The position numbers were made by a program, and so were the translations under genes. A DNA stretch of 42,468 bases from a virus, in IMG/VR virus record IMGVR_UViG_3300026075_000019, positions 1 through 42,468 of that record; one strand, 5' to 3'. The notes below the pieces were generated by a model. The model did no database searches and was not told where the DNA came from. It saw only the letters and a list, made by a program, of their open reading frames with translations. Shown here piece by piece: positions 1-42,468 of this stretch. Position 1 is the stretch's first letter. Each line of letters begins with the position of its first letter.

Positions 1-47
1 GTTTCCAGGACGTAAGTTACGGGAGTTCTACCTACCCCCCGTAGACT

Positions 48-404
48 TCATCTTCGGCCTCTCTGAGACTCCTTGGCGGTCTTGGCATCCGAGCACGCCG
101 TACAGAGCGGCTGGATGTTGCTGTGTCCATCTGTCCCACCTTCCGCGAGTGGGATGATGTGGTCGCGAATCATGGAGTTCTGGGCGTTCGGTCGCATGGT
201 CAGGCCACAGCCACAGACACGGCAGAACGGTTCCTGAGCGTAGAGCTCGGCTCTGAGTGTCTGGAGTTTGCGACCGCGGATACGGTCGGTGTCTCCTCGC
301 CAGCCGTACCGAGCTGGGGCCTGATGGGTCGGGCAATGTCGTTGCCCATGGGGGACGAGGACTGGACAGCCTGGCACGCAGGGATGCGGTGGGGCACTGG
401 GCAT
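48..404 (-). CDS. HNH endonuclease (HK97 gp74-like, packaging-associated)
   Basis: A 118-residue protein with an N-terminal Cys/His cluster (CVPGCP, HCPTH) and a C-terminal HNH core: CRVCG near residue 61, the RDHIIPL active-site strand near 80, NIQPLCTAC near 97. These are the usual treble-clef zinc cysteines and metal-binding His/Asn residues. In HK97-like phages an HNH nuclease encoded beside the terminase genes stimulates DNA cutting during packaging. The small terminase starts at the opposite end of the window, so this gene would directly precede terS if the molecule is circular. It begins 2 nt after the stop of the upstream gene (TAGGATG). The HNH assignment is confident; the packaging role is inferred from position. 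Confidence 0.88.
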   Translation of the reverse strand: MPSAPPHPCVPGCPVLVPHGQRHCPTHQAPARYGWRGDTDRIRGRKLQTLRAELYAQEPFCRVCGCGLTMRPNAQNSMIRDHIIPLAEGGTDGHSNIQPLCTACSDAKTAKESQRGRR

Positions 405-405
405 C

Positions 406-720
406 CTAGTGTGTCGCTGACAAGCGCGCCGCTCGCTTGGCCTGCTTAGCCGAAGGCACCGACAACGGCGGCTTGGGCTGCCCGTTGCGTTCTCCCGCCG
501 TCGGTGCCTCGCTGAACATGCGTGTCCGGCTGTCGTAGATGTCGGTAGGACCTGCGCCGGCTGTGGCTCGCATCTCCACCACCACCTGCGCCTTCTCTTG
601 CTGCAACAGTTTGTACGCCTGCTGGATCTGTCCCATCTGTTGCTCGGCCACCTGCATTTTCAGGCAGAGGTTCTGGAACCTGAGATCGAGGAGTTCAGGG
701 ACGGGTGATCGATCAGCCAT
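406..720 (-). CDS. Coiled-coil protein with MADRSPVPELL N-terminus, unknown function
   Basis: A 104-residue protein I cannot assign to a family. Residues 1-11 read MADRSPVPELL. Residues about 13-50 form a probable amphipathic helix or coiled coil rich in Q, K, E and L (QMGQIQQAYKLLQQEKAQV). The C-terminal third is basic and Ala/Lys/Arg-rich (AKQAKRAARL). The start at 720 is chosen because the same 11-residue N-terminus is present in the mini-gene immediately upstream, and because the stop of that mini-gene lies at 722-724. It sits between the fibre/metalloprotease cassette and the HNH nuclease. A virion-accessory or packaging-accessory role is possible, but only by position. Confidence 0.6.
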   Translation of the reverse strand: MADRSPVPELLDLRFQNLCLKMQVAEQQMGQIQQAYKLLQQEKAQVVVEMRATAGAGPTDIYDSRTRMFSEAPTAGERNGQPKPPLSVPSAKQAKRAARLSATH

Positions 721-721
721 A

Positions 722-802
722 TCAGGGTTGAATCGCGATCCGTTGCGCAGCGCCTGAATTGAACAGGGCGAGAAGTTCGGGCACCGGAGATCGGTCGGCC
801 AT
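722..802 (-). CDS. 26-residue mini-protein sharing the MADRSPVPELL leader
   Basis: A short frame starting 2 nt after the stop of the upstream gene (TAAGATG) and ending just before the next start. Its first 11 residues are identical to those of the 104-residue protein encoded next, followed by ALFNSGAAQRIAIQP. Between the two copies of the 11 codons there are 7 nucleotide differences, all at synonymous third positions. That is what selection on the peptide would leave, so the frame is probably translated despite its size. Function unknown. It could be a decayed partial duplicate, but a decayed copy should not retain only synonymous changes. Confidence 0.5.
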   Translation of the reverse strand: MADRSPVPELLALFNSGAAQRIAIQP

Positions 803-803
803 C

Positions 804-1112
804 TTAGCTCCCAGTCAGTGTCGTGACGAGGCCGTTCTTGACTTGGATCGCCGTGATAACGGTAAATGGCCCAGCGGTCCCACCAGCCACGAGATGACCG
901 TTCGTCCATTGCAGGAGATTCCCGTCCAAGTCGAGAATCTTCAGGCCACCGTCGTTCCATATCTGGACCGCCGTCGTGCTGCCTGATGGCGGAGTCACGA
1001 CGGGGCCGACGATCATGACGCCAACCGCCGAAGCGTCAGGATTTGAAGTCCCACCCACGCGGTGATCCAGCGAGGGGGAGGATGCAGCAGTGGAGATGCA
1101 GTGTCGCGTCAC
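804..1112 (-). CDS. Fibre-cassette accessory protein, unknown function
   Basis: A 102-residue protein starting at GTG 1112, which overlaps the metalloprotease stop as GTGA. The C-terminal half is predicted beta-rich (TTAVQIWNDGGLKILDLDG, then GPFTVITAIQVKNGLVTTL) and resembles the short beta-strand ends of phage tail-fibre or fibre-tip proteins. The N-terminus is Ser/Ala-rich and probably disordered. Its place directly downstream of the LamG-like fibre and the metalloprotease suggests it belongs to the adhesion cassette, perhaps as a small fibre-tip or cap protein. I recognise no catalytic motif. Confidence 0.6.
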   Translation of the reverse strand: MTRHCISTAASSPSLDHRVGGTSNPDASAVGVMIVGPVVTPPSGSTTAVQIWNDGGLKILDLDGNLLQWTNGHLVAGGTAGPFTVITAIQVKNGLVTTLTGS

Positions 1113-2215
1113 CGCTTCACCTGATGCGGCACGGTGCCACTACTTGCGGCATATGTCCCGTCCCCGCCGTATTCCGCCGTGAGCGTACGTGTTCCGACGA
1201 AAGCCGAGACGAGACTGCACGATCCGACACTGACTAACGCGCTACACTGGGCGCCCACATCATCGCGCACCGTCACTATTCCAGAAACATTGGATGGCGA
1301 GACAGCCCACTGCACCGTATAAGCGTGCCCCTTTTTCGATGGGTCTGGGCTATCGCTGACAATCTGCGTAGTCGTCTGGGTGAGTGGCGTGATGGTGCCA
1401 TACAATGCCTGCAATCCAGCAGTGTCGTCGGGATCGAGCGTGCGAAATGTGGTGGAACAGAGCGGATACGTCGGATACATCGTCGCGCTCAGGGCCGTCG
1501 AGTGATTCAGGCCGAGCGCGTGGCCGAGTTCGTGCGTGGCGATGTCCTGCACATACCAACCAGTGACACAGCCCGACCCACCGAAGGCGGGATAGAAGCC
1601 ATCCTGAAATACCGTGTCGGATTCGAGAATGACACCGCCCGAGATCCAGGTGAACGTCGTGCCCAACGTGCTGCCGCTCGTGGGGTCCTCACGGAAGAAC
1701 AGCAGATTGCGCCCATCGAACGCGACCACACTGTCCGTCGCGCGACCCGCATAGTTATAGACGAAGGGCGCGTTCTGCGTGCTCCAGGTCTGCGCGGCGG
1801 CGCGAATGGCGCTCTCCGCGGTCTCCGATAGCACTGAGGCGTTCACAGGGTTCAGCCAGAACGAGACCGGCGACGAGGGCCACGGCGCGAACGTCGCATA
1901 CTGCGGCTGGAGGATAGCGGAGGTGATCCGGCCGTCCCTAATCCTGACCCGATCACCAAGCCGCACCTCTGGCGTATCGGAAACGATCAGCGTCATACCG
2001 TTGACCGTCCCGCCTAGTACTGCAAACGGTTCGACTGTGGAATCACTAGCGATCCGTACGTAGCCGTGCGTGACAATGATCCGATCACCGTGTATAGTCT
2101 GCTGAAATTCGGCCACCGCTTCGAGTACGATACCCTCCCGCTGTTGTGAGGCTCCTGTAAGGTGCAGACCGCAGACGATGACGACACACAAGGCGAAGAA
2201 GAGGACACGTTTCAT
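1109..2215 (-). CDS. Secreted matrixin-type zinc metalloprotease with C-terminal Ig-like domain
   Basis: A 368-residue protein. Residues 1-24 form a classic Sec signal (MKR, hydrophobic VLFFALCVVIVCGL, then GAS-Q). Residues 25-105 are a beta-rich propeptide-like or OB-like region. Residues about 115-275 carry the catalytic domain: HELGHALGLNH at 228-238 fits HExxHxxGxxH of metzincins, with Met246 as the Met-turn, and LDPDDTAGLQALYG at 260-273 is a familiar matrixin ending. Residues about 285-368 look like a bacterial Ig-like domain with two cysteines (ALVSVGSCSLV). The start at 2215 overlaps the fibre stop by ATGA, so it is co-translated with the adhesin. Peptidase activity is well supported. 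Whether it is exported from the host or carried on the virion is not shown. Confidence 0.85.
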   Translation of the reverse strand: MKRVLFFALCVVIVCGLHLTGASQQREGIVLEAVAEFQQTIHGDRIIVTHGYVRIASDSTVEPFAVLGGTVNGMTLIVSDTPEVRLGDRVRIRDGRITSAILQPQYATFAPWPSSPVSFWLNPVNASVLSETAESAIRAAAQTWSTQNAPFVYNYAGRATDSVVAFDGRNLLFFREDPTSGSTLGTTFTWISGGVILESDTVFQDGFYPAFGGSGCVTGWYVQDIATHELGHALGLNHSTALSATMYPTYPLCSTTFRTLDPDDTAGLQALYGTITPLTQTTTQIVSDSPDPSKKGHAYTVQWAVSPSNVSGIVTVRDDVGAQCSALVSVGSCSLVSAFVGTRTLTAEYGGDGTYAASSGTVPHQVKR

Positions 2216-3333
2216 AATGTATCCCACTTCGCGCTGAGATATTCGAGTAGTTGACGGCGTTCGCGGCTGTTTAATGCCCGCGTGAACACGATCAATTCGC
2301 AAATGTCGCCGGTTAAGTTCGCGGTCCCAGGCCCAGCGTTTGATCCACCTATCTCGATCGACGCTAAGTTCACCGCTGGAAATTGACCGGGACTCACGTC
2401 CAATCCTGTTTTAACTAAGAGGACACCCGGAATGTCGGTCACGACCATACTATTCGATACGCTCGCAGCGCCGACCGCGGTGAACATGGTTGCAGCATTG
2501 AATGTCTGCGCGGTGAGCGTTGCACTGTCGTCCAGTAGTGCATCGGAGAAGTCAACGGCATCATCGCGTGAGGCCCCAAAACCTGTGGATAAGCCACTAT
2601 CTGAGGCAATGTTGAGCCCGACGCGCCGCACGGTATTGACGGTTAATGCGGCGAATATCTGACTCCCGCTGTTTGTTCCTCTCGCCACGGCCGCGACAGT
2701 GACGCCAGACTGTGCGTTGAGCATCGCGAGGGCACCAGCCGCGAGCACATTGAGAAATTGTGCATCGGATGTGCCGTCGAAGCGAACAACTGCAAGGCTG
2801 TTTTGAATGTTCGTTTTGTACACCGGCCTAAAAAGGCTGGTCGCTTGCGTGGCGTTGTAACTATTCCCGCTCTTGTCGGCCCATGTGGACACGGCATCGT
2901 TGTCGCTCGGACTCCCCGCGTTGATCGTGGTCGCATCGCTCGCGTCAAGCCACAGCGCCAGTCCTGAAATCTGGGCGGGCGAGTAAATGCCAGCCACCAC
3001 GAGTCGCCAATCTGTGTTGTTCTCCGAAGGCGCGGAGTTTGTCGATGATCCAATCGCTTGCCAGGCGCTCCCGCCGTACGTGACCACATTCCCGGCGACG
3101 TAGGCTGTCCCGCTGTCCCAGGCGGCGGGGATGTTGCTGACTGTGGCGTTGACCCCGCCGAAGGTCGCGGTGGAGCCGCTGACGCTACTCCCCGTGATCC
3201 CCCCGAACGTCGTCGCATCGAAGCGATACTGGAGTTCGGTGCCGGATCCGCCGGGCGAAGCCCCACCACCGCTACCCTCGGGCAGCGGTTCCCAGGACGC
3301 ACCATCGCCAAGAACACGGCGCCGTTCGGTCAT
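2212..3333 (-). CDS. Tail fibre/adhesin with CBM5/12-like and LamG-like domains
   Basis: A 373-residue protein. Residues about 1-65 are Gly/Ser-rich with a short fibre-like beta region. Residues about 69-112 (AAWDSGTAYVAGNVVTYGGS, then WQAIGSS and NNTDWRLV) match the small aromatic carbohydrate-binding module seen in chitinases and phage fibres (CBM5/12 style). Residues about 120-373 start with ISGLALWLDASD and VSTWADKSGNSYNA and end with GDICELIVFTRALN and LLEYLSAKWDTL, typical of concanavalin/LamG-type jelly rolls in phage and bacterial adhesins. It probably binds host surface glycan. The metalloprotease gene follows with a 4-nt overlap. The upstream 93 nt contain a 9-bp direct repeat. Confidence 0.75.
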   Translation of the reverse strand: MTERRRVLGDGASWEPLPEGSGGGASPGGSGTELQYRFDATTFGGITGSSVSGSTATFGGVNATVSNIPAAWDSGTAYVAGNVVTYGGSAWQAIGSSTNSAPSENNTDWRLVVAGIYSPAQISGLALWLDASDATTINAGSPSDNDAVSTWADKSGNSYNATQATSLFRPVYKTNIQNSLAVVRFDGTSDAQFLNVLAAGALAMLNAQSGVTVAAVARGTNSGSQIFAALTVNTVRRVGLNIASDSGLSTGFGASRDDAVDFSDALLDDSATLTAQTFNAATMFTAVGAASVSNSMVVTDIPGVLLVKTGLDVSPGQFPAVNLASIEIGGSNAGPGTANLTGDICELIVFTRALNSRERRQLLEYLSAKWDTL

Positions 3334-3347
3334 GACGCGATCCGATG

Positions 3348-3392
3348 TAGCATGCGGAACTCCTGCGAAGTACCAGCCGCACCTAGCATGCG
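3348..3392. repeat. 9-bp direct repeat TAGCATGCG upstream of the fibre gene
   Basis: TAGCATGCG occurs at 3348-3356 and again at 3384-3392, each containing the palindrome GCATGC, with 36 bp between starts. Both lie in the short intergenic gap in front of the fibre start at 3333. Spaced palindromic half-sites in this position could bind a regulator of the fibre/metalloprotease unit, but no promoter is obvious to me, and two 9-mers may be chance. Confidence 0.3.
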
Positions 3393-3426
3393 CGTCCTCT
3401 GTCGAAATCGAGGCTGAAATCTGGAT

Positions 3427-3654
3427 TTATAAATGCGGATTCTTGACGGGCCGGTAGCGATGCACAGGCCGTCCGCGGGTCTTCGCCGTGGCACCATCGA
3501 GGCAGATCAAGCCATCACGGACGAGCAGTGTTAGCGCCGCGAGCACACTGGACCGCGCACCCTTGGCGTACGTGGCGATGGCATAGGAATCCTCACAGCC
3601 GGCTTCCACCGCCGCGATCACGCGGACGAGGAGCTTCTGCGCCTCATGGCTCAT
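3427..3654 (-). CDS. Small winged-helix DNA-binding protein
   Basis: A 75-residue protein with helical segments, then SSVLAALTLLVRDGLICLDG, then TRGRPVHRYRPV. This is the usual recognition-helix and wing layout (two helices, a beta-hairpin with Gly-Arg-Pro) of a winged-helix domain. A similar wing (DTRGRPAKQYGL) ends the protein encoded at 4893-5246, so the two may be distant paralogues. It follows the interrupted methyltransferase and precedes the fibre gene. A regulatory role is likely but the target is unknown. Confidence 0.6.
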   Translation of the reverse strand: MSHEAQKLLVRVIAAVEAGCEDSYAIATYAKGARSSVLAALTLLVRDGLICLDGATAKTRGRPVHRYRPVKNPHL

Positions 3655-3714
3655 TCCGGCTGATCCTGAGAGGGTGGCTCAGTCCCTCGACACACTGAGC
3701 ACGGCGCCCAAGAG

Positions 3715-4257
3715 TCATGACGACCTCACTTCCGGATACCACGCTCGAGCGATGTGTCGCGCGAGCGGAAGGGGGATTTTCGCGATCTGCGCGCTGGCGG
3801 CTTTCCTGGCGTTTGATCTGCTACCGGCACTGCCGAACCAATCGCCGCCGTTTTTGCGGCCATCTGGAGGTCCGTGTCCGCTCGTCGTGTTGTGCGCGAT
3901 ATTGAACCATGATCCGCCATTGTTTTTCGTGGCTCCTTCGTGATGAAACGCCGAAGCATTGCCGTCATTCAGTAGGATGTATTCACGCTCTGACCACATG
4001 CGCGGACCGCAGTTCGCGGGAAACTTCATGCGACGGTTGACCACGATCGGCATGAGCGCCGGCACGTCGCCCCACAAATAGAAGCTCCCATAATGCCAGC
4101 GAGCCCGACCAACCCACTTCTGTGCTCCTAGCACGTTCTCTACGAGCATTGGAATATGGCGTCCGGCAGCCTCGCACGCTTCGCGTTGAATCCGAAAGCA
4201 CGCCTCGAACAGCGAATTGTCCGGCGGTGGTAGCGCCTTGGCTTTCTTCCACGGCAT
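3715..4257 (-). CDS. C5-cytosine DNA methyltransferase, C-terminal part (split gene)
   Basis: A 180-residue frame from ATG 4257, in the same reading frame as 4276-4506 but separated from it by a TAA. It carries LVENV (motif VI, Glu-Asn-Val) and then AQKWVGRARWHYGSFYLWGD, typical of small phage C5 methyltransferases. Between the TAA and this ATG the frame reads AYSYRA, which continues the family sequence without a gap. The gene is therefore a single methyltransferase broken by one nonsense codon, not two unrelated genes. It may be translated by re-initiation, by readthrough, or not at all. Target specificity cannot be read. Confidence 0.65.
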   Translation of the reverse strand: MPWKKAKALPPPDNSLFEACFRIQREACEAAGRHIPMLVENVLGAQKWVGRARWHYGSFYLWGDVPALMPIVVNRRMKFPANCGPRMWSEREYILLNDGNASAFHHEGATKNNGGSWFNIAHNTTSGHGPPDGRKNGGDWFGSAGSRSNARKAASAQIAKIPLPLARHIARAWYPEVRSS

Positions 4258-4275
4258 CGCCCGGTAGCTGTAGGC

Positions 4276-4506
4276 TTAGCAGGGAGGACTCGCGACGATC
4301 AACGCCGCATTATTGAACTGTGAACCGTGAATCGTGAGCACGTCCTGCAACACGAGCTGCGCCGGGTATTTCGCCTCACCGTAAGCATGTCGCTCAATAT
4401 CGAAACCCACGACGCGATAACCCTCCGCGAGCAACCCTTCGGTCCAGCCGCCTAAGCCGCAGAACAAATCGATCGCCAACGGTCGGGGCCGCTCGGCGAG
4501 GGTCAT
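4276..4506 (-). CDS. C5-cytosine DNA methyltransferase, N-terminal part ending at the catalytic PPC
   Basis: A 76-residue frame from ATG 4506. AIDLFCGLGGWTEGL is motif I (SAM binding, DLFxGxGG) and the chain ends with LIVASPPC, the motif IV catalytic Pro-Cys. The next codon is TAA (4276-4278), where family members typically have Gln (PPCQ), so a CAA-to-TAA change would explain it. The downstream frame continues the enzyme for another 186 codons. The catalytic cysteine is thus the last residue of this fragment. Whole locus 3715-4506 is 264 codons, a normal length for a short phage enzyme. It could be a recent pseudogene, a sequencing error or a readthrough gene. Confidence 0.65.
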   Translation of the reverse strand: MTLAERPRPLAIDLFCGLGGWTEGLLAEGYRVVGFDIERHAYGEAKYPAQLVLQDVLTIHGSQFNNAALIVASPPC

Positions 4507-4527
4507 TTCTGGCCTATTTCCACACAT

Positions 4528-4557
4528 TTGACAAAACCCAAGCGGTTGGCTTATATT
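4528..4557 (+). promoter_or_regulatory. Strong sigma70-like promoter for a leaderless plus-strand unit
   Basis: TTGACA at 4528-4533 is a perfect -35, and TATATT at 4552-4557 matches the -10 at five of six positions, with an 18-bp spacer. The spacer contains the symmetric element CCAA-gcgg-TTGG (4538-4549), a possible operator. The expected start of transcription, about 7 nt past the -10, falls on or next to the ATG at 4564, so the transcript would be leaderless or nearly so. Confidence 0.6.
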
Positions 4558-4563
4558 CAGTGC

Positions 4564-4734
4564 ATGGATACGACACGCCGCGACCTGATGACCCGCCGGG
4601 ATGCCGCCCTCGCCGCTGGCGACATCGCCACATTTCAAGCCTTGACCGCACAAATCGCCCAACTGCCCATGAAAGGCGTTGAAGAACTGACGCCGAAGGA
4701 CATCGCACGGTATGCCGCACGCCACTCCTCGTAA
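4564..4734 (+). CDS. Small helical protein of the plus-strand unit, unknown function
   Basis: A 56-residue protein (MDTTRRDLMTRRDAALAAGD at the start), mostly helical, charged and Ala/Gln-rich (FQALTAQIAQL), ending in IARYAARHSS. It lies on the plus strand between two minus-strand blocks. The ATG at 4564 is 7 nt downstream of the -10 element of a strong promoter, which decides the start and predicts a leaderless transcript. Its end overlaps the next gene by 23 nt. I do not recognise a family. A regulatory or lysogeny-expressed small protein is plausible given its separate promoter. Confidence 0.55.
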   Translation: MDTTRRDLMTRRDAALAAGDIATFQALTAQIAQLPMKGVEELTPKDIARYAARHSS

Positions 4735-4849
4735 AAATCCCGCCGCTGTGGCCCTTGGACGCAAAGGCGGCAAAGCCACATCAGAGGCCAAAACCGCCGC
4801 CGCTCGGCTCAATGGCGCGAAGGGTGGACGACCACCTAAAACGCCGTAG
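4712..4849 (+). CDS. Small basic protein (ALGRKGGKATSEAK / KGGRPPK type)
   Basis: A 45-residue, strongly basic protein that runs NPAAVALGRKGGKATSEAK and then AARLNGAKGGRPPKTP. This combination of Gly-Arg-Lys-Gly-Gly repeats and a Lys-Gly-Gly-Arg-Pro tail recurs in tiny phage and plasmid proteins, probably nucleic-acid binding; I cannot name an experimentally studied member. It overlaps the preceding gene by 23 nt in another frame and ends 43 nt before a convergent minus-strand gene ends. It probably shares the promoter at 4528-4557. Confidence 0.55.
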   Translation: MPHATPRKNPAAVALGRKGGKATSEAKTAAARLNGAKGGRPPKTP

Positions 4850-4892
4850 ACACTCCTACGCGTCGGCTCGGCGAGGGTCAGCCTGGGGGTAC

Positions 4893-5246
4893 TCATCGGG
4901 AACTTTCTGGAAGCCCGTACTGTTTCGCCGGCCGTCCCCGCGTGTCCGTCACCCAGCCCACGATCACGATCCGTCCCTGCCCGTGCAGCCGTTCCAACGG
5001 CACGTAGACCGCGGCATGCGCCACACCGAATGCCGCCATCAACTGCCGGATCGTATGCGGGCCAGCCTCGAGCGCGTGACACAGTTGCGCTTCCCAGGCC
5101 AGCTTCCGCGTCGGATCGCGGTCCTGCCTGGAGAGGCTGATCCGGGGCTTGGGCTGCACCACGATCCGATCGTCGCGCCACGCCGATCCACTCCAGCAAA
5201 CGGAGTATTCCTCAACGGGACCGGCGCGGTGGGTGGAGAGGATCAA
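4893..5246 (-). CDS. Winged-helix regulator-like protein
   Basis: A 117-residue protein. Residues about 45-117 form a probable winged helix: WEAQLCHALEAGPHTIRQLM, then FGVAHAAVYVPLERLHGQG, then a wing with RIVIVGWVTDTRGRPAKQYG. The first 44 residues have no motif I know. The start at 5246 overlaps the nuclease stop by ATGA. It is the last gene of the early minus-strand operon and its 3' end faces the plus-strand unit. The wing resembles that of the protein at 3427-3654. Confidence 0.55.
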   Translation of the reverse strand: MILSTHRAGPVEEYSVCWSGSAWRDDRIVVQPKPRISLSRQDRDPTRKLAWEAQLCHALEAGPHTIRQLMAAFGVAHAAVYVPLERLHGQGRIVIVGWVTDTRGRPAKQYGLPESSR

Positions 5247-5518
5247 CGGTCCTCGATCCCGAAATGCTTAAACACGTCGCCCTCCGTCTGCCAAATCAAC
5301 ACCGGACTCAACCGATGCACAATGACCTGGGACGGCGTCAGTGTGCCCGTCCGCGCGTCTTTGACCTCGACCGCGGCCCAGCCCTTATCCCGCGTAAACA
5401 CGAACGCGTCCGGGCAACCGTGGCCCACCTGGGACGTGTCCTGCACCACGCCCCCGAGTTGCCGCGCCAGATGCAGCAACGCGCGATGATTGCCGTCCAC
5501 ACGCCCACGCCGCCTCAT
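5243..5518 (-). CDS. VRR-NUC-like PD-(D/E)xK nuclease
   Basis: A 91-residue protein with NHRALLHLARQLGGVVQDTS, then VGHGCPDAFVF and WAAVEVKD. The Pro-Asp and Glu-Val-Lys pair is the PD-(D/E)xK active site, and the order (helix, G-x-PD strand, ExK strand, TPSQ helix) matches standalone phage VRR-NUC proteins, a family proposed to act on branched DNA such as Holliday junctions. No RusA-type resolvase was seen, so this may be the resolvase that clears recombination intermediates before packaging. It overlaps both neighbours by 4 nt, in a replication gene context. Confidence 0.75.
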   Translation of the reverse strand: MRRRGRVDGNHRALLHLARQLGGVVQDTSQVGHGCPDAFVFTRDKGWAAVEVKDARTGTLTPSQVIVHRLSPVLIWQTEGDVFKHFGIEDR

Positions 5519-5994
5519 CGGATCGCCTTCCCCTGCGCCAACGTCGCGGCGACGTCTTCGACCCTGGTAAGCTGGGTCGGATCGCCTTCCGGTTCAGTCG
5601 CAGGTAGCGCCGGCATTGGCCGCCGTCCAAGAATCTCCAGCCGACGCAGCGATCGGCATGTGCACGGCTCCGCTCGATTCGTCGTTTCATTGAGGAAAAA
5701 TGAGGTGTCTCCACAGGCCGTGCACAGCGGCGCCGGCAACTTGCGGAGGACCGCCCGCTGCTCCTCAGTCCGCTTGTGCTCGAGCCCGACGACGGCGGCG
5801 TGCCAGTCGCCCGCCTTCGGGAACCACTGGCCGCGCATCAACTCGTCCGCGGCCATCACAACGAGCTCGATGTCGAGTTTCTTCAACGCCTCGAAATAGG
5901 CCCGGAGCTGTGCCGCGTCGGGATCTTTCTCGCGTAGCGCCAGGCACAGCCGCGCCATCGCCGCCGCGAATGCCGGCTTGTCGGCATCAGTCAC
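5515..5994 (-). CDS. Replication-associated helical protein with a four-Cys motif
   Basis: A 159-residue protein. The N-terminal 85 residues are helical (AAAMARLCLALREKDPDAAQ; ELMRGQWFPKAGDWHAAVVG). Residues about 90-113 contain CTACGD and, after FFLNETTNRAE, PCTCR: four cysteines likely to bind zinc. The tail is Pro-rich and probably flexible. It overlaps the replication initiator-like gene by 8 nt and the nuclease by 4 nt. By position it might be a helicase-loader or primosome accessory protein, but no P-loop is present, so it is not a DnaC-type ATPase. Confidence 0.5.
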   Translation of the reverse strand: MTDADKPAFAAAMARLCLALREKDPDAAQLRAYFEALKKLDIELVVMAADELMRGQWFPKAGDWHAAVVGLEHKRTEEQRAVLRKLPAPLCTACGDTSFFLNETTNRAEPCTCRSLRRLEILGRRPMPALPATEPEGDPTQLTRVEDVAATLAQGKAIR

Positions 5995-6781
5995 GAAGAA
6001 ACTCCTCCACCGCTCGCGCGGTTTTCAGCGTCGAATCCGCGACGTGTGATTGGCCCGGCTGTTCGTCCTTCCAGCGGCCCTGATTGAGCCAAGTGCTCGG
6101 ATGCGGAATGTATTGCCCGCCGTCGCGAATCCACGAATCCTGCTGCCGCTGCCACGCCAACACCGCGAGCATCGTCTTATGTAACTCGCTGTCCGGGTTG
6201 ACTTTCTGATACGCCTTCCATGCCACGTCTTTCCCGACCTTGCGCGGGTAATGCGTCCAGAACTCTGCGAACAATTCTCTTAATCCGGTACTACTAAGAA
6301 GCCTTGAGCCTTTAGCCTTTAGAGTGACTTGATGTGCCTCTGATGCGACATCACCGTTGAGACGTGATGCGCCGTTGATGCGCATCAACATCGGGTGATG
6401 ATCGATGAACAGCGCCGACGTCCCCTCATCGCATCGGTCCAACGTCTCAGCCGGCGGGCAGGGGTTGATCGTCTTCGACGGGAACTTGACGTGCTGGTAC
6501 TTGTGCCAGTCCAACTGGCAGATGAACCGTTGCCCCTGATGCTGGAACTCCACCACCAGCCCGACTTCCACGATCCGCTCAAGACACCGCTGAATCGTCC
6601 TCGTGGGCCGCGTATGCAGCGAATCGTTGTCCGCCTGGACGTTCACCGCAGACAGCCGCATGACGCCGTAGTCGTCGGCTGAGAGCAGGTATTGCGTCCA
6701 TACCCGCGCCTCGAGGTCAGTCAGTGTGTTGACCTTCTCGGAGTGGCCGAGATTGGGATGGAGGAAACGATTTGCCGGCAT
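5987..6781 (-). CDS. Phage replication initiator-like protein (N-terminal winged helix)
   Basis: A 264-residue protein that starts after a clear Shine-Dalgarno (AAGGGA, 6 nt before ATG). Residues about 10-100 have the winged-helix arrangement of phage replisome organisers (LTDLEARVWTQYLLSADDYG; IQRCLERIVEVGLVVEFQHQ; GQRFICQLDW). The middle is a variable linker and residues about 175-245 carry LFAEFWTHYPRKVGKDVAWK and PHPSTWLNQGRW, a C-terminal helical region frequent in phage O-like/DnaD-like proteins. It probably binds the phage origin and recruits host helicase. Any origin could lie within this gene, as in lambda O, but I saw no convincing iterons. Confidence 0.68.
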   Translation of the reverse strand: MPANRFLHPNLGHSEKVNTLTDLEARVWTQYLLSADDYGVMRLSAVNVQADNDSLHTRPTRTIQRCLERIVEVGLVVEFQHQGQRFICQLDWHKYQHVKFPSKTINPCPPAETLDRCDEGTSALFIDHHPMLMRINGASRLNGDVASEAHQVTLKAKGSRLLSSTGLRELFAEFWTHYPRKVGKDVAWKAYQKVNPDSELHKTMLAVLAWQRQQDSWIRDGGQYIPHPSTWLNQGRWKDEQPGQSHVADSTLKTARAVEEFLRD

Positions 6782-6796
6782 GTGATCCCTTAGTCC

Positions 6797-7120
6797 CTAC
6801 TTCGCCGTCGCCAACTGCCACCGAACATTAGAGATACCGGATCGTGCGTTTTTGATCGTGTCGTACGCTTCCACCAGTCCCAACCTCACGAGTGCGTTCC
6901 TTCTCGCGTTGATCGACGTGCGCTCGATGCCCATCGCGTCGGCGGCGTCCGCATCCGTCAACGGCCCGCGAGCGCGATACAGTGCCAGGAGTGCCAGTGC
7001 TTGCCGGCCACACCGTTCTGCGGCCGACTTCGCACCTTCCGCCGAGCAATGCAGGCTCATCGGCGTCGAGCCTTGAAACGGAAGGCTGAGCGGTTCGGCG
7101 TCGAGGGAGCCGTGATTCAT
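6797..7120 (-). CDS. MarR-like winged-helix protein
   Basis: A 107-residue protein from ATG 7120, which overlaps the upstream stop as ATGA. Residues about 33-75 read RCGRQALALLALYRARGPLT, DADAADAMGIERTSINARRN and ALVRLGLVEAYDT. This is a clear helix-turn-helix with wing, in the style of MarR or of the HTH that splits phage replication control genes. It sits directly upstream of the replication initiator-like gene and may regulate it or take part in origin recognition. Confidence 0.6.
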   Translation of the reverse strand: MNHGSLDAEPLSLPFQGSTPMSLHCSAEGAKSAAERCGRQALALLALYRARGPLTDADAADAMGIERTSINARRNALVRLGLVEAYDTIKNARSGISNVRWQLATAK

Positions 7121-7389
7121 TTGGCGACTTTCTGCTCGCGCCACTTCGCCCGTTCGTACTTCAGATTCATAAGCACCGCGTCGAGTTGCGTGAGATAGGT
7201 CCGAAACCACGAGCCGCACCGGCCTTTCGCGCGAGGACTCCGCCCGCAGTACTGGCAGCGCGTTTTCAGCATCGTGAGAAATAAGTGGCCGTTCGAGGCC
7301 TTCATGCGGTTGTCCGCCGTGAGTTTCGCCAGCATCCATTCCTCTGGCGTGAGGCAAATATTGGCGTCGAGGGCGCCGGTAGATGGCAT
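7117..7389 (-). CDS. Small early-region protein with four cysteines, unknown function
   Basis: A 90-residue protein. The middle section is helical (LTPEEWMLAKLTADNRMKAS). It contains CQYCGRSPRAKGRCG, three cysteines in a zinc-like cluster with a fourth at residue 12. The C-terminus is another helix (LMNLKYERAKWREQKVAK). It begins within the stop of the upstream gene (TGATG), so translation is coupled. No family assigned. Confidence 0.5.
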   Translation of the reverse strand: MPSTGALDANICLTPEEWMLAKLTADNRMKASNGHLFLTMLKTRCQYCGRSPRAKGRCGSWFRTYLTQLDAVLMNLKYERAKWREQKVAK

Positions 7390-7586
7390 CAGAGAGAACC
7401 CCTATCCCGATACGCGGCGAATTTCCTTGGCGCCGAGCTCCAATCCACGGCCGGCCCATCGATCCCCTGTCGCCATTCCGCACGTTGAGTCGATCGATGC
7501 CACTCCGCAGAGAGAGGCGAACGCCGCACACGACGAAGAAGCACCAGCACGATCCCGCTGAGGAGGACGAGGCCGAGGAGGGTCAT
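7389..7586 (-). CDS. Small single-span membrane protein
   Basis: A 65-residue protein whose first 22 residues form one strong hydrophobic segment (MTLLGLVLLSGIVLVLLRRV) followed by Arg-rich residues, so it should anchor in the inner membrane with a basic cytoplasmic tail. The tail has no motif I recognise. The start at 7586 overlaps the HNH stop by ATGA and the stop overlaps the next ATG by one base, both in keeping with a real gene in this compact operon. Confidence 0.5.
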   Translation of the reverse strand: MTLLGLVLLSGIVLVLLRRVRRSPLSAEWHRSTQRAEWRQGIDGPAVDWSSAPRKFAAYRDRGSL

Positions 7587-7915
7587 CGATCCGCCTTCCG
7601 AATAAAGCGCACCGTGCGCGCCAGATTACGGCCACCGAATCTGACCTCGATCAGATGCGCGTGGATGTCTTCATGGCAGCGCTTGCACAGCAAAGCGAGG
7701 TTGTTCGGATCGTGGTCCCCGCCCTGGCTGCGATATTTCAGGTGATGCACTTCCGCTCCAGAGCGCCCACAGCACTTACACTTCCCGCCGTCACGCGCCT
7801 TGACGAACCGCCGAGCCTCCCGCAGTTGCCGTTCCTTCTCCAAGCGAATCGCTCGCTTCGCCAGCACACGCGGCGCTGGTTTCGGGAAGGCGAGCATGGA
7901 GGTATCAACGCCCAT
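7583..7915 (-). CDS. HNH endonuclease
   Basis: A 110-residue protein. After a basic helical N-terminus the HNH fold is complete: CKCCGRSGAEVHHLKYRSQG with the catalytic His-His pair, then NNLALLCKRCHEDIHAHL. The four cysteines in two CxxC pairs form the structural zinc site. A start at Met7 (7897) is also possible. It lies in the early region between the Ala-rich protein and small accessory genes. It may be a homing-type nuclease, or serve DNA processing or host DNA breakdown; position does not decide. Confidence 0.82.
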   Translation of the reverse strand: MGVDTSMLAFPKPAPRVLAKRAIRLEKERQLREARRFVKARDGGKCKCCGRSGAEVHHLKYRSQGGDHDPNNLALLCKRCHEDIHAHLIEVRFGGRNLARTVRFIRKADR

Positions 7916-7960
7916 GATCAGACGTCTCCCTGATCGGGGAGGGACGCGAGGGGGCGGGGA

Positions 7961-8746
7961 TCAGGCATCGACATCTCCTGCCCTCACCGCCACCATGCGA
8001 CGAACGAGGTCACTGGCTGATATTTCCAACAACGTGACAGTCGGAGCGAGAGCGGCCCCCGCAGCGGCCCTCGCAGCGGCCCACGCAGCGGCCCCCGCAG
8101 CGGCCCTCGCAGCGGCCCCCGCAGCGGCCCCCGCAGCGGCCCCCGCAGCGGCCCACGCAGCGTCCACCGCAGCGTCCCACGCCCTCGCAGCGGCCCTCGC
8201 AGCGGCCCCCGCAGCGTCCCCCGCAGCGTCCCCCGCAGCGGCCCCCGCAGCGTCCCCCGCAGCGGCCCACGCAGCGTCCACCGCAGCGTCCCACGCAGCG
8301 GCCAGCGGCTGATCAGCCGCTGCCACGCTGGCTTTATCCGTCAACGGCGTTAATGCGCGGAGCGCGTCCGCGTGCGGCTTCAGAGCGGGCGTCAGATCCA
8401 GCCATGCCGGTGCCTGCACGCGCGCCAGCCAGTCGAAGGCGAGATAAGACCGCTGCAATTCCACGGCTGGCGTCGACTTCGACCCGACTAGCAGCGGCAG
8501 CAACGGCTTCAGTAGCGCGGTGCGATGCGCGTCATCACGGATCGCATCGTTCCAACTCCGCATGAAGGCGCCGATCACAGGACAGGCACACTGCGGCTGA
8601 TCAGAGTGGGGCTCGCCCGCCAGCCACGCCACAGCCTCCATCGCGCACACGGCCGACTCGCGGGTCTCATGTCCACCGGCTTTGAGCACGATGCCGTCCA
8701 GCCCGATCAACGGCAACGTCTTCGGTAGTCCAGTCGTCATAGCCAT
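7961..8746 (-). CDS. Protein with long Ala-rich tetrad repeat
   Basis: A 261-residue protein starting directly after the upstream stop (TAGATG). Residues about 1-145 look like an ordinary helical domain with four to five cysteines (CAMEAVAWLA; QCACPVIGAFMRSWNDAIRD; LDLTPALKP). Residues about 146-240 are almost only Ala with Gly, Arg, Trp and Asp every fourth residue (AAWDAAVDAAWAAAG, then many AAAG and AAAR units), and the last 22 residues are again ordinary. Short early phage proteins with AAWDAA-type repeats recur in phages, but no function is known to me. The repeat should form one long helix with a periodic stripe. Confidence 0.65.
   Translation of the reverse strand: MAMTTGLPKTLPLIGLDGIVLKAGGHETRESAVCAMEAVAWLAGEPHSDQPQCACPVIGAFMRSWNDAIRDDAHRTALLKPLLPLLVGSKSTPAVELQRSYLAFDWLARVQAPAWLDLTPALKPHADALRALTPLTDKASVAAADQPLAAAWDAAVDAAWAAAGDAAGAAAGDAAGDAAGAAARAAARAWDAAVDAAWAAAGAAAGAAAGAAARAAAGAAAWAAARAAAGAALAPTVTLLEISASDLVRRMVAVRAGDVDA
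8049..8300. repeat. Imperfect 12-bp tandem repeat inside the Ala-rich gene
   Basis: About 20 tandem copies of a 12-bp unit, GCAGCGGCCC[C/T/A]C on the plus strand, with GCAGCGTCCC variants. Because 12 is a multiple of 3 the repeat stays in frame and encodes the AAxA tetrads. A 32-bp block is present twice without change (8151-8182 and 8265-8296), 114 bp apart, so a higher-order duplication lies on top of the 12-bp unit. Confidence 0.85.
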
Positions 8747-12876: not shown

Positions 12877-12904
12877 AGTATAGGCATTCGGGACAAAATG
12901 TCAA
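12877..12904 (-). promoter_or_regulatory. Consensus sigma70-like promoter giving a near-leaderless transcript
   Basis: Read on the minus strand: TTGACA (12904-12899), 16-bp spacer, TATACT (12882-12877). The -35 is perfect and the -10 matches five of six. The start codon at 12868 begins 8 nt after the -10, so transcription should start within 1-3 nt of the ATG, as in lambda cI made from PRM. Spacer content shows no obvious operator. Confidence 0.7.
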
Positions 12905-12957
12905 GCGTGGCGCCTCCGGAAACGGCTCCGAAGTTGGACAATGCGCCAACCTCTTAC

Positions 12958-12975
12958 GTGGTAAACACTTACCAC
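12958..12975. promoter_or_regulatory. Perfect inverted repeat, candidate operator
   Basis: GTGGTAA-ACAC-TTACCAC, 7-bp arms with a 4-bp centre, just before ATG 12979 of the plus-strand HTH gene and inside the divergent regulatory gap. An 18-bp dyad of this size is the usual footprint of an HTH dimer. Its position, abutting the start codon, suggests repression of the plus-strand gene. I could not place a clean -10 for that gene (TTGGAC at 12934 is a possible -35). Confidence 0.6.
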
Positions 12976-12978
12976 CCC

Positions 12979-13404
12979 ATGAAAGCCAACCTCCTGCTGA
13001 AGACCAACATCGACGCGCTGCTCCGCGCTCGAGGTCAGACACGGAAGGATCTGGCGATGTGGTGTCGGCGCACCGAAAGCTGGATCTCGAAAGCCTTCCG
13101 CGATCCCAACCGCAGCATCCCGCTCCGCTACTTCGACCGCATCGCGGACTTCTTCGGGCTGGCGACCTATCAACTGTTCCAGCCGGGGATCACGCCCTAC
13201 ACGGAACGCCGGAGCGGGAAGGAACGGCGCAGCGGCATCGATCGGCGTCTGAGCCACATCGACCGGATCCGGTCCATGATGCGAACAGATCCCTATCGCG
13301 CCGCGGTTGAAGCCGTCAACGAAGCTGAGCGGATCGAAACCGAGCGGCGCACACGCGCACAGGATCCGAAAGAGACACGATCTCCACGACGGAAGGGCCG
13401 GTGA
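12979..13404 (+). CDS. HTH regulator with ERRSGKERRSG linker motif
   Basis: A 141-residue protein (an ATG at 12898 would add 27 residues but would run through the operator-like dyad, so 12979 is preferred). Residues 1-70 are an XRE HTH: LLKTNIDALLRARGQTRKDL, AMWCRRTESWISKAFRDPNR, then YFDRIADFFGLATYQLFQPG. Next comes the basic repeat TERRSGKERRSGIDRRLS, found after HTH domains in many phage and bacterial regulators, and a helical basic tail. It diverges from the HTH gene at 12868; together they form a switch. Confidence 0.75.
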   Translation: MKANLLLKTNIDALLRARGQTRKDLAMWCRRTESWISKAFRDPNRSIPLRYFDRIADFFGLATYQLFQPGITPYTERRSGKERRSGIDRRLSHIDRIRSMMRTDPYRAAVEAVNEAERIETERRTRAQDPKETRSPRRKGR

Positions 13405-19052: not shown

Positions 19053-19550
19053 TCACGCCCTCGACCCAGGCACCGGAACAATCGTCCGCGCCCACGCGGC
19101 GGCGTAGTGTTCCTGCCACGTTTCTGGCCGCGGGCGACCGGGACGCCACGCACTCACGTACACCTGCCAGCCGACATCCGGCTCAGTCATAAACGGCAGC
19201 GGACGGCTATCCGTCCACAACAAGCACCGCGCGAACGCCGCAGCCAGTACGTCGTTGTGCTCGATGGCGGCGAGCACATCAGACGACGGCATCGTTGCGT
19301 CGTAGCGCAGCGCCCGCAGGACGATCGCGATCGGAGCCGCCGTGCTCGGATGATCAAGGACGCCACGCACACCAGCCCGTTCAAACTGGAACCAGCCCCG
19401 CGCAGGCCCGCCGATCTGGCGCCGATACTCCAAACCGCTCTCCTGCATGGCAATGCTCAATAAGAGCGCCGTCGCGGCTTGACTCTCCATCGCGGGAGGC
19501 AGGAGTTGATAGGCCGCCGGGAGAATGAACCGCAGAAGGAGGTCAATCAT
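19053..19550 (-). CDS. Endolysin, lysozyme/transglycosylase-like
   Basis: A 165-residue protein with the lysozyme-like signature LLLSIAMQESGLEYRRQIGG, where Glu37 of MQESG is the likely catalytic acid, followed by PARGWFQFERAGVRGVLDHP. The later YDATMPSSDVLAAIEHNDVL, AAAFARCLLWTDSRPLPF and QVYVSAWRPGRPR agree with a family of short phage muramidases or transglycosylases. There is no signal peptide, so a holin is needed for export. It overlaps the spanin-like gene by 8 nt. Expected role: peptidoglycan breakdown at lysis. Confidence 0.75.
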   Translation of the reverse strand: MIDLLLRFILPAAYQLLPPAMESQAATALLLSIAMQESGLEYRRQIGGPARGWFQFERAGVRGVLDHPSTAAPIAIVLRALRYDATMPSSDVLAAIEHNDVLAAAFARCLLWTDSRPLPFMTEPDVGWQVYVSAWRPGRPRPETWQEHYAAAWARTIVPVPGSRA

Positions 19551-19887
19551 GGTCGTGCCGCCGATCCCCGTCCCGACGTCGATCCACGATCTCTTCCAAC
19601 CGGCGGAACTCCCGGCGCAGCTCCTCGAGGCGCGGTTCCACCACGTACTGGTGATACCGGTCGAGCGCTTCTTGCATCTCCTCCCGATACTTATCAGGTA
19701 ACGTGTTGACCGTGGACGCCAGCTCCGACATCAACTTGTTCGCGCGCTCGAAGTCGCGAAACTTCGACCCCGCGCTGAACGTCTTCATCAGGCCCCCGAC
19801 GATCAACATCCCGATAGCCAAGACGATCCCCTGAATCAACGAGATCGTCTGCAAGGCTTGGGTGTGATCCGGCTGGGGTTGCATCAT
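19543..19887 (-). CDS. Membrane-anchored coiled-coil protein, i-spanin candidate
   Basis: A 114-residue protein from ATG 19887 (ATGATG, overlapping the upstream stop). One membrane span, ISLIQGIVLAIGMLIVGGLM near 15-34, is followed by about 75 residues of charged helix (FRDFERANKLMSELASTVNT, LEELRREFRRLEEIVD) and a basic His/Asp/Arg tail. An N-terminal anchor with a long periplasmic coiled coil matches an inner-membrane spanin, and it is next to the endolysin. No lipobox o-spanin was seen nearby. A holin or a tail-associated membrane protein is an alternative. Confidence 0.5.
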   Translation of the reverse strand: MMQPQPDHTQALQTISLIQGIVLAIGMLIVGGLMKTFSAGSKFRDFERANKLMSELASTVNTLPDKYREEMQEALDRYHQYVVEPRLEELRREFRRLEEIVDRRRDGDRRHDHD

Positions 19888-20045
19888 CGGAGGACCAGTT
19901 TCAGGACTTCCAACCCGGCGCCGATGATGTACGTCGCGAGCACCCAGCGCAGGAGGGTGTAGACCGAAATCTCGTCCCACCAGGCCCACAGGCGATCCGT
20001 GAGCCGATCTGAGTGTTGCTGCGCGATCGCGACAAACATCTCCAT
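19884..20045 (-). CDS. 53-residue single-span membrane protein
   Basis: MEMFVAIAQQHSDRLTDRLW, then AWWDEISVYTLLRWVLATYI, then IGAGLEVLKLVLR: an amphipathic N-terminus and one span around 27-48. It is joined to the upstream 28-residue gene by TAATG and to the downstream gene by ATGATG overlap. Size, span and place in the lysis cluster fit a small holin, pinholin or holin partner. No direct evidence beyond this. Confidence 0.55.
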   Translation of the reverse strand: MEMFVAIAQQHSDRLTDRLWAWWDEISVYTLLRWVLATYIIGAGLEVLKLVLR

Positions 20046-32309: not shown

Positions 32310-32650
32310 GCCGCCACCGCCCGCGCCGCGACAGCAATCAGCAGCCCCTCGCCGCGATTGATCTCGGTGACACCTTTCACGTCGTAGGTACGACCGTCAT
32401 GTCCGATGATCTGCGCCAAATCCGGCGTTGGCCTCGGACTCATGTCGTACGTCTTGTAGATGCCCTCAATCGTGGCGTCGATCTGACGGGCCTGCCACGT
32501 TTCGGTGGCGCTACTCTGTAACCATTCCGCCGCGATGGGCTGGCTACTCACCCACGTCGCCACGTCTTGGCCGGTCTGCGGATCCTCAGCGACCGTCGCG
32601 GTCTGCACGACAATACGTCGGTCCATCTTGCCGGACGCCAGGTGCGTCAT
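32306..32650 (-). CDS. Head-tail adaptor (phage_H_T_join, SPP1 gp16-like)
   Basis: A 114-residue protein from ATG 32650 (ATGA overlap; an upstream in-frame start at 32674 would overlap further). It has GKMDRRIVVQTATVAEDPQT, QDVATWVSSQPIAAEWLQSS, IDATIEGIYKTYDMSPRPTP and GHDGRTYDVKGVTEINRGEG. RI..Q......D..TG......W, a repeated beta-barrel pattern and GRTYDVKGV are recurrent in the head-tail joining protein family. It should sit below the gp6-like connector. A large glycosyltransferase gene separates it from the connector gene. Confidence 0.8.
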   Translation of the reverse strand: MTHLASGKMDRRIVVQTATVAEDPQTGQDVATWVSSQPIAAEWLQSSATETWQARQIDATIEGIYKTYDMSPRPTPDLAQIIGHDGRTYDVKGVTEINRGEGLLIAVAARAVAA

Positions 32651-40468: not shown

Positions 40469-41991
40469 CGCGTCAACGCGAACATGCGAAACTCCGGCCT
40501 CGGGATCGCGTTGTTCCGTTCCATTTGATCCACAGCCATGACCAACGCCGCCACCCCATCGATCCGTTCCGTCGAGACCTTCTTGGAAATCTTGATGTTC
40601 CCAGGCGCGTCAGTTTCCACGGACACATTGCCGATGTTCCACCGGAGGATCGGATGCCCATCGTGGCGGAGCGTCTTCGACAAAATCGCCTTCTCGAGCG
40701 CCTTCGTCGGAGCCGCGAGACTGTTGAACCCTTGCCGCATCGGCACGCAGGTAAACCCGTCCTGCTCCTGTAACCGCGTCACCAGATCCGTGGCATTCCA
40801 CGGGTCAAACGCGATCGTCTGGACCTTGTAGTCGTCAGCCCACTCGCGCAACCGCCGGCGGATGTATTCGTAATCCACCACGTTCCCCGGTGTGGCGTCT
40901 AGATAACCCTCGCGTGCCCACTGCTCATACGGCACGCGATCCCGCGTCGACCGCTCCCGCATATTCTCGGCTGGCACAAAGAACGCCGGCAGCACGTCGA
41001 ATCCGTCCTCGTCTGGGAACACGGCTACGAGCGCCGTGAGGTCCTTCGTGCTCGAGAGGTCCATCCCAACATAGCAGCGCCGACCAAGTAGACTCTCCGC
41101 AGGCCGGCGACAGGCATCCCAGGCCGGCATCTGAATCCACCGTGCCGCCTGCTCGGTCCACTGGTTCAGATACAGCCGCCGGAACGTGTTCTCCTGCGCC
41201 GGGATCTCCTTCGCCCGTTGACACGCGATCCGCATCTCCTCGAGGCTCCGAAAGTCCCCGAGCGCCGGGTTACACGCTTTCCAGACCTTTTCGTCGGTCC
41301 AGTCGGCATCTTTAGGCGCTTCAAAGAGGATCGGCAGGAACGTCGGGTCCAGATCCGGCTGCTCGACCACCTTTTTCGCGTGCGCGTAGAGTTCCCACAG
41401 GATGGAATGCCTGTCGTACCCGGCCGTGGTGATCGCCATCATCAACGGCTGCGCTCGAGCGCCCTGGCTGGTCGAGAGCACGTCCCACAGTTCCCGCGTC
41501 TGCGCCGCGTGGAGTTCGTCGTAGATGACCACCGAGGCGTTGAACCCGTGCTTGCTGTAGGCTTCGGCCGAGATAGCCCGGTAGAAGCTCCCCGACTTCC
41601 GATGCACGATCCGCTTCTGGGAGTCGATGATCTCGCACTGCGCCAGCAACTCCAGATCGTTCCGAATCATCTCGGCGGCGACGTTGAACACCAACGCCGC
41701 CTGGTCCTTATCGGCCGCAGCGGAATACACCTCGGCGCCGATCTCGCCGTCGAACAGTAGAAAGTAGATCGCCAGCGCCGCGCAGAGCTCCGACTTCCCA
41801 TTCTTCCGCGGCAACATCAGGAGACACGTCCGATACTGCCGCCGGCCATCCGACCGAGTCTTGAACAGTTGCTTCAGGATCTTGACTTGCCACGGCCGCA
41901 AGTTGAACGACTGGCCAGCAGACGGTCCCTTGGTATGCGTCAGTTGGTTAACCAACCGAATCGCCCAGGCGGCAGCGGTTTCCCGCTTCAC
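40465..41991 (-). CDS. terL: Terminase large subunit
   Basis: A 508-residue protein from GTG 41991, which overlaps the small-terminase stop as GTGA (an in-frame GTG at 42009 is an alternative). LLMLPRKNGKSELCAALA near 60-75 is the Walker A-like P-loop; SVVIYDELHAAQTRELWD near 153-170 is Walker B with the catalytic Glu, and MMAITTAGYD the coupling segment. The C-terminal nuclease has CYVGMDLSSTKDLTALVAVF, QTIAFDPWNATDLVT and ERIDGVAALVMAVDQ, the conserved acidic residues of an RNase H-like fold. It cuts and pumps DNA into the prohead. Confidence 0.93.
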   Translation of the reverse strand: MKRETAAAWAIRLVNQLTHTKGPSAGQSFNLRPWQVKILKQLFKTRSDGRRQYRTCLLMLPRKNGKSELCAALAIYFLLFDGEIGAEVYSAAADKDQAALVFNVAAEMIRNDLELLAQCEIIDSQKRIVHRKSGSFYRAISAEAYSKHGFNASVVIYDELHAAQTRELWDVLSTSQGARAQPLMMAITTAGYDRHSILWELYAHAKKVVEQPDLDPTFLPILFEAPKDADWTDEKVWKACNPALGDFRSLEEMRIACQRAKEIPAQENTFRRLYLNQWTEQAARWIQMPAWDACRRPAESLLGRRCYVGMDLSSTKDLTALVAVFPDEDGFDVLPAFFVPAENMRERSTRDRVPYEQWAREGYLDATPGNVVDYEYIRRRLREWADDYKVQTIAFDPWNATDLVTRLQEQDGFTCVPMRQGFNSLAAPTKALEKAILSKTLRHDGHPILRWNIGNVSVETDAPGNIKISKKVSTERIDGVAALVMAVDQMERNNAIPRPEFRMFALTR

Positions 41992-42419
41992 GGCAGCGCC
42001 CCAGCCCACTTCGACGCCGGCTCATCCTTCTTCTTCGGCACCGAGATCCGCGCCCGACTCACCGGCTCCAACCCGAACAGCGCGTAATACGGTCGGATCA
42101 CGTTGGCCGTGTCCCGCTCGAGCCGCACGTCAAAGATCGCGGTCCCCTTCGCCGCGGCATTCGCGCTGAACGTCGCCTGCAGCTCGCACAGGGTCGCAAA
42201 CGGCCGAACATCAGCAGGCGTTAACGTCCCCATCGCGAGACACATCGGCGCGAGCTCGTCCCACACCACCCCAGCCGCACTCGACAACTGCGCCGGCTTC
42301 TCTACGGCTCCAGCCGGTGGACGTACCTCATTTTCATTGAGCTTTTTGCGACTTGGGTTCCCGCGCAACACCGTCAGTGCGGTCGGGTTGGGGCGGCGTC
42401 CTGAATTCGCGTTCCCCAT
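41988..42419 (-). CDS. terS: Terminase small subunit (P27-like)
   Basis: A 143-residue protein. It begins MGNANSGRRPNPTALTVLRG, then NPSRKKLNENEVRPP, then VVWDELAPMCLAMGTLTPAD and VRPFATLCELQATFSANAAA, the P27-family layout with a GxxRxPT start and LTxxD turn. A short AGGA 4 nt before ATG serves as ribosome site. It is the right-most gene; if the molecule is circular, the HNH nuclease at 48-404 lies immediately upstream, the HK97 arrangement. Confidence 0.85.
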   Translation of the reverse strand: MGNANSGRRPNPTALTVLRGNPSRKKLNENEVRPPAGAVEKPAQLSSAAGVVWDELAPMCLAMGTLTPADVRPFATLCELQATFSANAAAKGTAIFDVRLERDTANVIRPYYALFGLEPVSRARISVPKKKDEPASKWAGALP

Positions 42420-42468
42420 AAAATCCTACAGAACCCCTTTCGTTTCTTCCGAAAACCTGCGCGAGCCA

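Follow-up and report, generated by a model that had tools for sequence, protein, structure and literature searches.

A secreted matrixin-type metalloprotease gene coupled to a LamG-like fibre gene in a tailed phage genome

The protease gene and its domains

The window analysed is the whole IMG/VR record IMGVR_UViG_3300026075_000019, a stretch of 42,468 nt in which the minus strand carries nearly all genes. Near its left end, a predicted metalloprotease gene lies between a virion-structural family gene and a small open reading frame, with the following features:

1109..2215, minus strand: secreted matrixin (M10) metalloprotease, 368 aa (PF00413; PDB MMP-20; Foldseek karilysin and MMPs)
2144..2215, minus strand: Sec-type signal peptide, residues 1-24, cleavage position approximate (hydrophobic-core rule score 3.44; sequence reading)
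1907..2143, minus strand: N-terminal region, residues 25-103, without cysteine switch (tblastn alignment to the Chloroflexota matrixin L107)
1394..1882, minus strand: catalytic matrixin domain, residues 112-274 (Pfam, alignments, core model, Foldseek)
1112..1357, minus strand: C-terminal Ig-like domain (Big_3_5), residues 287-368 (Pfam; Ig repeat of the Chloroflexota protein L109)
2212..3333, minus strand: CBM5/12 and LamG-like virion structural or fibre protein (Pfam, PHROG; 4-nt overlap with the protease start)
804..1112, minus strand: small downstream ORF, 102 aa, no family match (its GTG overlaps the protease stop)

The protease frame reads from 2215 to 1109 and encodes 368 aa with no internal stops. 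Residues 112-273 match PF00413 with 61 bits (cut-off 24; E=1.6e-16), over positions 2-159 of the 159-position profile, and a phmmer search of the PDB returned more than 100 chains, the top ones listed being matrix metalloproteinases with MMP-20 first (E=3.3e-13). The zinc motif HELGHALGLNH occupies residues 228-238 (H228, E229, H232, and H238); across an alignment of ten viral sequences these histidines and E229 do not vary and M246 hardly does, and in a five-sequence alignment that includes bacterial relatives the Met-turn M246 is invariant. One such relative, L107, aligns weakly over its full length (query 10-332, 27% by tblastn) and has an altered third zinc-ligand region. As read from the sequence, the zinc ligands, catalytic glutamate, and Met-turn are intact, the product is a predicted protease, and its molecular identity as a matrixin is near certain.

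Structure prediction points the same way. An AlphaFold model of the full protease with the ten viral sequences had a pLDDT of 41.6, too low for use; a core-only model, of modest but usable quality, reached 60, with values of 80-90 at the active-site helix. Foldseek with the core model gave 162 PDB matches at E≤0.001, the first being the catalytic domains of karilysin and human MMPs (E~1e-5); these matches are support for the fold and not proof of it, because the TM-scores are only about 0.5.

The N-terminus carries the signal MKRVLFFALCVVIVCGLHLTGASQ, one of only two signal-like N-termini that a simple hydrophobicity rule, not SignalP, picks out in the window. The other belongs to a fibre-like DUF5907 repeat protein at 20132-21925 on the minus strand (MKSYLFGLRSAGPVIVALLLAAPASAQ), whose top phage match is annotated as a 'membrane-anchored cell surface protein'. 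The cysteine-switch propeptide (PRCGxPD) is absent from the protease, residues 25-112 being without cysteine, as is a hemopexin domain, Big_3_5 being the sole Pfam domain after the catalytic domain; the enzyme is therefore a bacterial-type matrixin and not an animal MMP. The Big_3_5 match itself (E=1.9e-8) scores 35.2 bits, slightly below the 35.5 cut-off, and the domain is 49% identical over 91 aa to the Chloroflexota Ig-repeat protein L109.

These results bear out the sequence-only reading, which had described an intact secreted matrixin-type protease with a Sec signal, HELGHALGLNH, a Met-turn, and a C-terminal Ig-like domain, and had proposed structure prediction and a profile search for M10 as checks on it. 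The marginal Pfam score of the Ig-like domain is backed by its identity to the Chloroflexota repeat, and the core model is supportive.

Neighbouring genes

The same reading had the protease coupled by 4 nt to a CBM/LamG-like fibre gene, and this holds: the protease ATG overlaps the stop of the upstream 2212-3333 (TTATGA; an ATGA overlap), a gene that scarcely exceeds the CBM_5_12 cut-off and matches a PHROG 'virion structural' family at E=1.6e-23. Downstream, the protease TGA overlaps the GTG of the next ORF (GTGA), and genes continue to an HNH endonuclease and then the end of the record. The close coupling of the protease to a gene from a virion-structural family, together with the C-terminal Ig-like domain, would suit an enzyme that is assembled with the LamG fibre and digests surface protein at entry. 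The Sec signal, however, would take the protease out of the cytoplasm, the site of virion assembly, and a place in the virion is very doubtful. The protease gave no match in a PHROG search, and with its signal present it does not class as a phage tail fibre or virion protein.

Further upstream, a C5-cytosine methyltransferase-like gene (3715-4506, minus strand) has an in-frame TAA at 4276-4278 immediately behind its catalytic SPPC motif, with the frame open on both sides and continuing as AYSYRAMPWKKAKA. The TAA may be a nonsense mutation, an assembly error, or recoding.

Genome ends and the variable arm

Three features mark the two ends of the window:

48..404, minus strand: HNH endonuclease, adjoining one physical end (PF01844, E=5.5e-9)
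41988..42419, minus strand: TerS-like gene at the opposite physical end, named from its position rather than from a family match (79% identity to a gene that ends the 54 kb relative G027; precedes TerL)
42450..42468, minus strand: cos-type terminus motif TGGCTCGCGCAGGTTTTCG (recurrent contig start in TerL relatives)

The right-hand gene order is the TerS-like gene, TerL, a fused prohead protease/HK97-type capsid protein, and portal. The right-end motif (CTCGCGCAGGTTTTCG, with variations) forms the contig start, upstream of TerS, in 23 of 80 TerL relatives in IMG/VR, where about 3 of 80 would be expected from background (4%). The near-identical record G001 ends no more than 1 base from the right end of the window, G027 has HNH at one end and TerS at the other as in the window, and in G021 the two genes lie about 1 kb apart on a single contig. 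This layout fits cohesive (cos) physical ends between HNH and TerS, the shared motif is likely the cos terminus of the whole phage group, and the record is, on the same sequence evidence, very probably a complete phage genome. In the phylum sampled, TerL relatives reach an identity of at most 40%; a 'soil-type' label for the phage is an impression from the relatives' sample sources.

Several observations on these records stand apart. A 698-aa protein at 32647-34743 (minus strand), with methyltransferase and weak glycosyltransferase matches, lies amid morphogenesis genes and occurs also in G027 and G031. In the related phages G021 and G031, small proteins of about 160 aa with a signal peptide resemble each other (L099:11191-11685 and L101:9479-9949). 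The relative G003 carries signal-peptide proteins that resemble, by reading only, VirB9/VirB5-type conjugation proteins (L094:4214-4975 and 1294-2061) on the same contig as a phage TerL; it is possibly a chimera or an integrated element.

Because the terminus motif and the HNH and TerS genes mark the two ends, the protease gene sits some 1.1 kb in from a physical cos-type terminus and is very unlikely to be host DNA. Coverage by G001 stops at window position 8185, leaving the left arm (1-8184) outside it, so the protease is covered by one assembly only and the arm is supported by layout alone (HNH and TerS ends as in G027). This gap is what would speak for a misassembly or host DNA; against it stand the agreement of the HNH and TerS ends with the layout of G027, the overlap of the protease gene with both neighbours, the upstream one phage-like, and codon use that is shared across the arm. 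Considering also G021, host contamination is very unlikely and misassembly unlikely, the two together amount to a highly improbable explanation, and both were rejected on the end structure and gene overlaps.

The protease had also been placed in an adhesion cassette rather than at an edge, as an argument against contamination. The fibre-like arm and the phage origin of the genome stand, but the gene does lie 1.1 kb from a contig edge, which is the physical end of the phage. The arm next to HNH in G027 and G021 contains fibre-like, PKD-type, and structural-looking genes (translations read by eye). GC3 is 0.65-0.70 across the arm of the window (HNH, g406, g804, protease, LamG, and DCM) against 0.79-0.81 in the head genes, a lowering of the whole arm that would be expected if it were an exchanged block of cargo. 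A set of 39 related or LamG-bearing records, many of them fragments, contained no match to PF00413. This absence, the fibre-like genes in the equivalent arm, and the GC3 difference together mark the protease as cargo in a variable host-interaction arm. Scans with the LamG, HNH, and replication genes gave just four distant LamG loci, leaving no readable sister phage with this arm.

Cargo of this kind could serve a lysogen, for instance in nutrition or competition, if the phage were temperate. The bacterial-type architecture of the protease and, weakly, an HTH protein on the opposite strand (12898-13404) are in keeping with such lysogenic conversion, but integrase and excision families were not found among the proteins scanned (a subset of ORFs), and the genome in the record is linear and free, with cos ends, rather than a prophage, which leaves this explanation unlikely.

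Relatives of the protease

No close relatives of the protease were found in IMG/VR, no relative at all was detected in INPHARED, with 50,697 phage records searched, and GTDB genomes gave matches to the Ig domain only. A plasmid collection gave a single weak match, to a matrixin on a Paenibacillus plasmid, and when degenerate DNA for the zinc motif was scanned for, the matches listed were mostly out-of-frame chance hits. The closest relatives that could be read are secreted matrixins from Chloroflexota genomes, at 32-38% identity over the aligned part, in a phylum sampling that left out others such as Acidobacteriota. The absence of the gene from all 39 records searched and of close relatives from every collection searched would also be expected of a neutral or recent passenger from which the phage gains nothing; against this, the gene has kept its reading frame, catalytic residues, signal, and overlaps intact, and a passenger is improbable.

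More distant viral matrixins do occur. Two alignment-based scans of IMG/VR found M10-like proteins on about 19 more viral contigs; every one that was tested scores above the Pfam cut-off, and by inspection the majority carry a signal peptide or lipobox. Their settings are varied; the one in L118 is near an M23 peptidase. Some clearly belong to phages: L115, with a head maturation protease and tail sheath nearby; L117, with a portal nearby; and L247 and L248, where the matrixin comes after baseplate or fibre-like genes (the fibre assignment being weak in L248). In the last two (L247:5437-6132 and L248:5362-6132), a single ORF combines a coiled-coil/transmembrane holin-like part, a lipobox-like stretch, and the matrixin, and in L248 it is followed by an endolysin-like gene. 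Three related contigs (L252:5533-6162, L254:5533-6174, and L251:5521-6177) carry a signal- or lipobox-type matrixin between a DNA methylase-like gene and an HNH gene, and two viral matrixins (L116:9419-10189 and L245:5929-6804) have an N-terminal PG_binding_1 domain in a lysin-like architecture.

Comparison with known systems

The best-described counterpart is Listeria Mtz, a phage-derived secreted metzincin encoded with a TIMP-like lipoprotein, Tim (PMC8235301). Mtz and Tim sensitise Listeria cells to holin-lysin lysis, and virion release is about 5-fold higher with Mtz-Tim, an effect that needs Mtz catalysis (PMC8235301). Mtz and the window protease are both phage-associated, exported metzincins with HExxHxxGxxH and a Met-turn; Mtz, however, has its TIMP-like lipoprotein partner and lies near holin-lysin genes in prophages, and the window protease has neither. 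No Tim-like exported lipoprotein lies beside it, the only other signal-like N-terminus (20132-21925) not being adjacent, and it is not next to holin-lysin genes, the candidate lysis genes (tentatively named) lying 17 kb away at 19053-19989. Conversely, the Ig domain and fibre coupling of the window protease are not described for Mtz (PMC8235301).

Among isolated phages, the tailed Maribacter phage Colly_1 (QQO97377, MT732450) likewise encodes a matrixin with an export signal, but a short lipoprotein-type one with HEIAHVLGLGH and without an Ig domain, in a different phage family. The Zn-dependent protease of Lactobacillus phage 3-521 (QBJ03557) shares an M10-like fold and a secretion-type N-terminus, and differs in lying among small hypothetical genes and in being without an Ig domain. 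The Chloroflexota matrixins (L107, L108, and L111) and karilysin have the same catalytic domain within multidomain secreted proteins, as in the window protease, but are cellular genes with other C-terminal domains.

The earlier suggestion that metzincins are rare in phage genomes thus needs qualifying: the searches of related records and phage collections agree with it, yet matrixins occur in isolated phages, in Listeria prophages (PMC8235301), and on the IMG/VR contigs described above. With similar proteases in a few other phages, the gene is an unusual, yet not unprecedented, cargo gene. Phage matrixins were already known; what is new here is the Ig-like domain and the coupling to a LamG-type gene.

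Proposed role

The account favoured here, held tentatively, is that a horizontally acquired bacterial-type matrixin is kept as phage cargo and, once exported, cleaves envelope or matrix proteins and so aids exit and spread. A tailed phage would have taken up an intact bacterial-type matrixin gene and kept it in its variable host-interaction arm, where the protease would be translated together with the fibre-like gene. The host Sec pathway would export the protein with release of the signal, and outside the cytoplasm the protease would fold, take up zinc, and cut exposed host envelope, surface-layer, or matrix proteins, with the Ig-like domain probably anchoring it to a surface. The most likely gain would be in virus exit and spread, through help with lysis and loosening of the matrix around the burst cell. 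The sequence itself establishes the identity of the protein, its complete active-site residues, the export signal, the place in the operon, and the occurrence of the gene in a very probably complete phage genome, whereas the time of expression, substrate, anchoring, and benefit are inferred. Of the roles put forward in the sequence-only reading, a change to the host surface, breakdown of biofilm matrix, and help to a lysogen, each is a possibility only.

Counted in favour of a role in exit were the active site, the export signal, the complete cos-ended genome, and the fibre-like genes and GC3 of the arm, as well as other phage matrixins, mostly exported by inspection and some between fibre and endolysin genes (L247 and L248), and the effect of Mtz-Tim on virion release in Listeria. 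Counted against it were the absence of an adjacent Tim-like lipoprotein and the consideration that, in a Gram-negative host, getting beyond the periplasm takes more than Sec. The link to lysis is by analogy only, because the candidate lysis genes are 17 kb from the protease. An exported protease could alternatively strip a receptor or surface protein and so block the adsorption of later phages. The export signal and the position beside a fibre-like gene are compatible with such superinfection exclusion, but no match to a known exclusion protease family was obtained and PADLOC returned none, and this role appears distinctly unlikely.

Beyond the role in exit proposed for this gene, it is conceivable, if somewhat doubtful, that exported matrixins are recurrent, independently acquired phage envelope effectors, often encoded right after fibre genes, which act at exit by remodelling the surface proteins of the host; the present gene would then stand for a multidomain form whose Ig-like domain holds it to a surface.

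Significance

The polysaccharide depolymerases and peptidoglycan lysins of phages are well known, their secreted proteases much less so. The protease gene, together with a catalytic-glutamate control, allows a direct test of activity on envelope or matrix proteins. If phage matrixins do act on such proteins, phage release and biofilm entry would gain a protein-degrading component.
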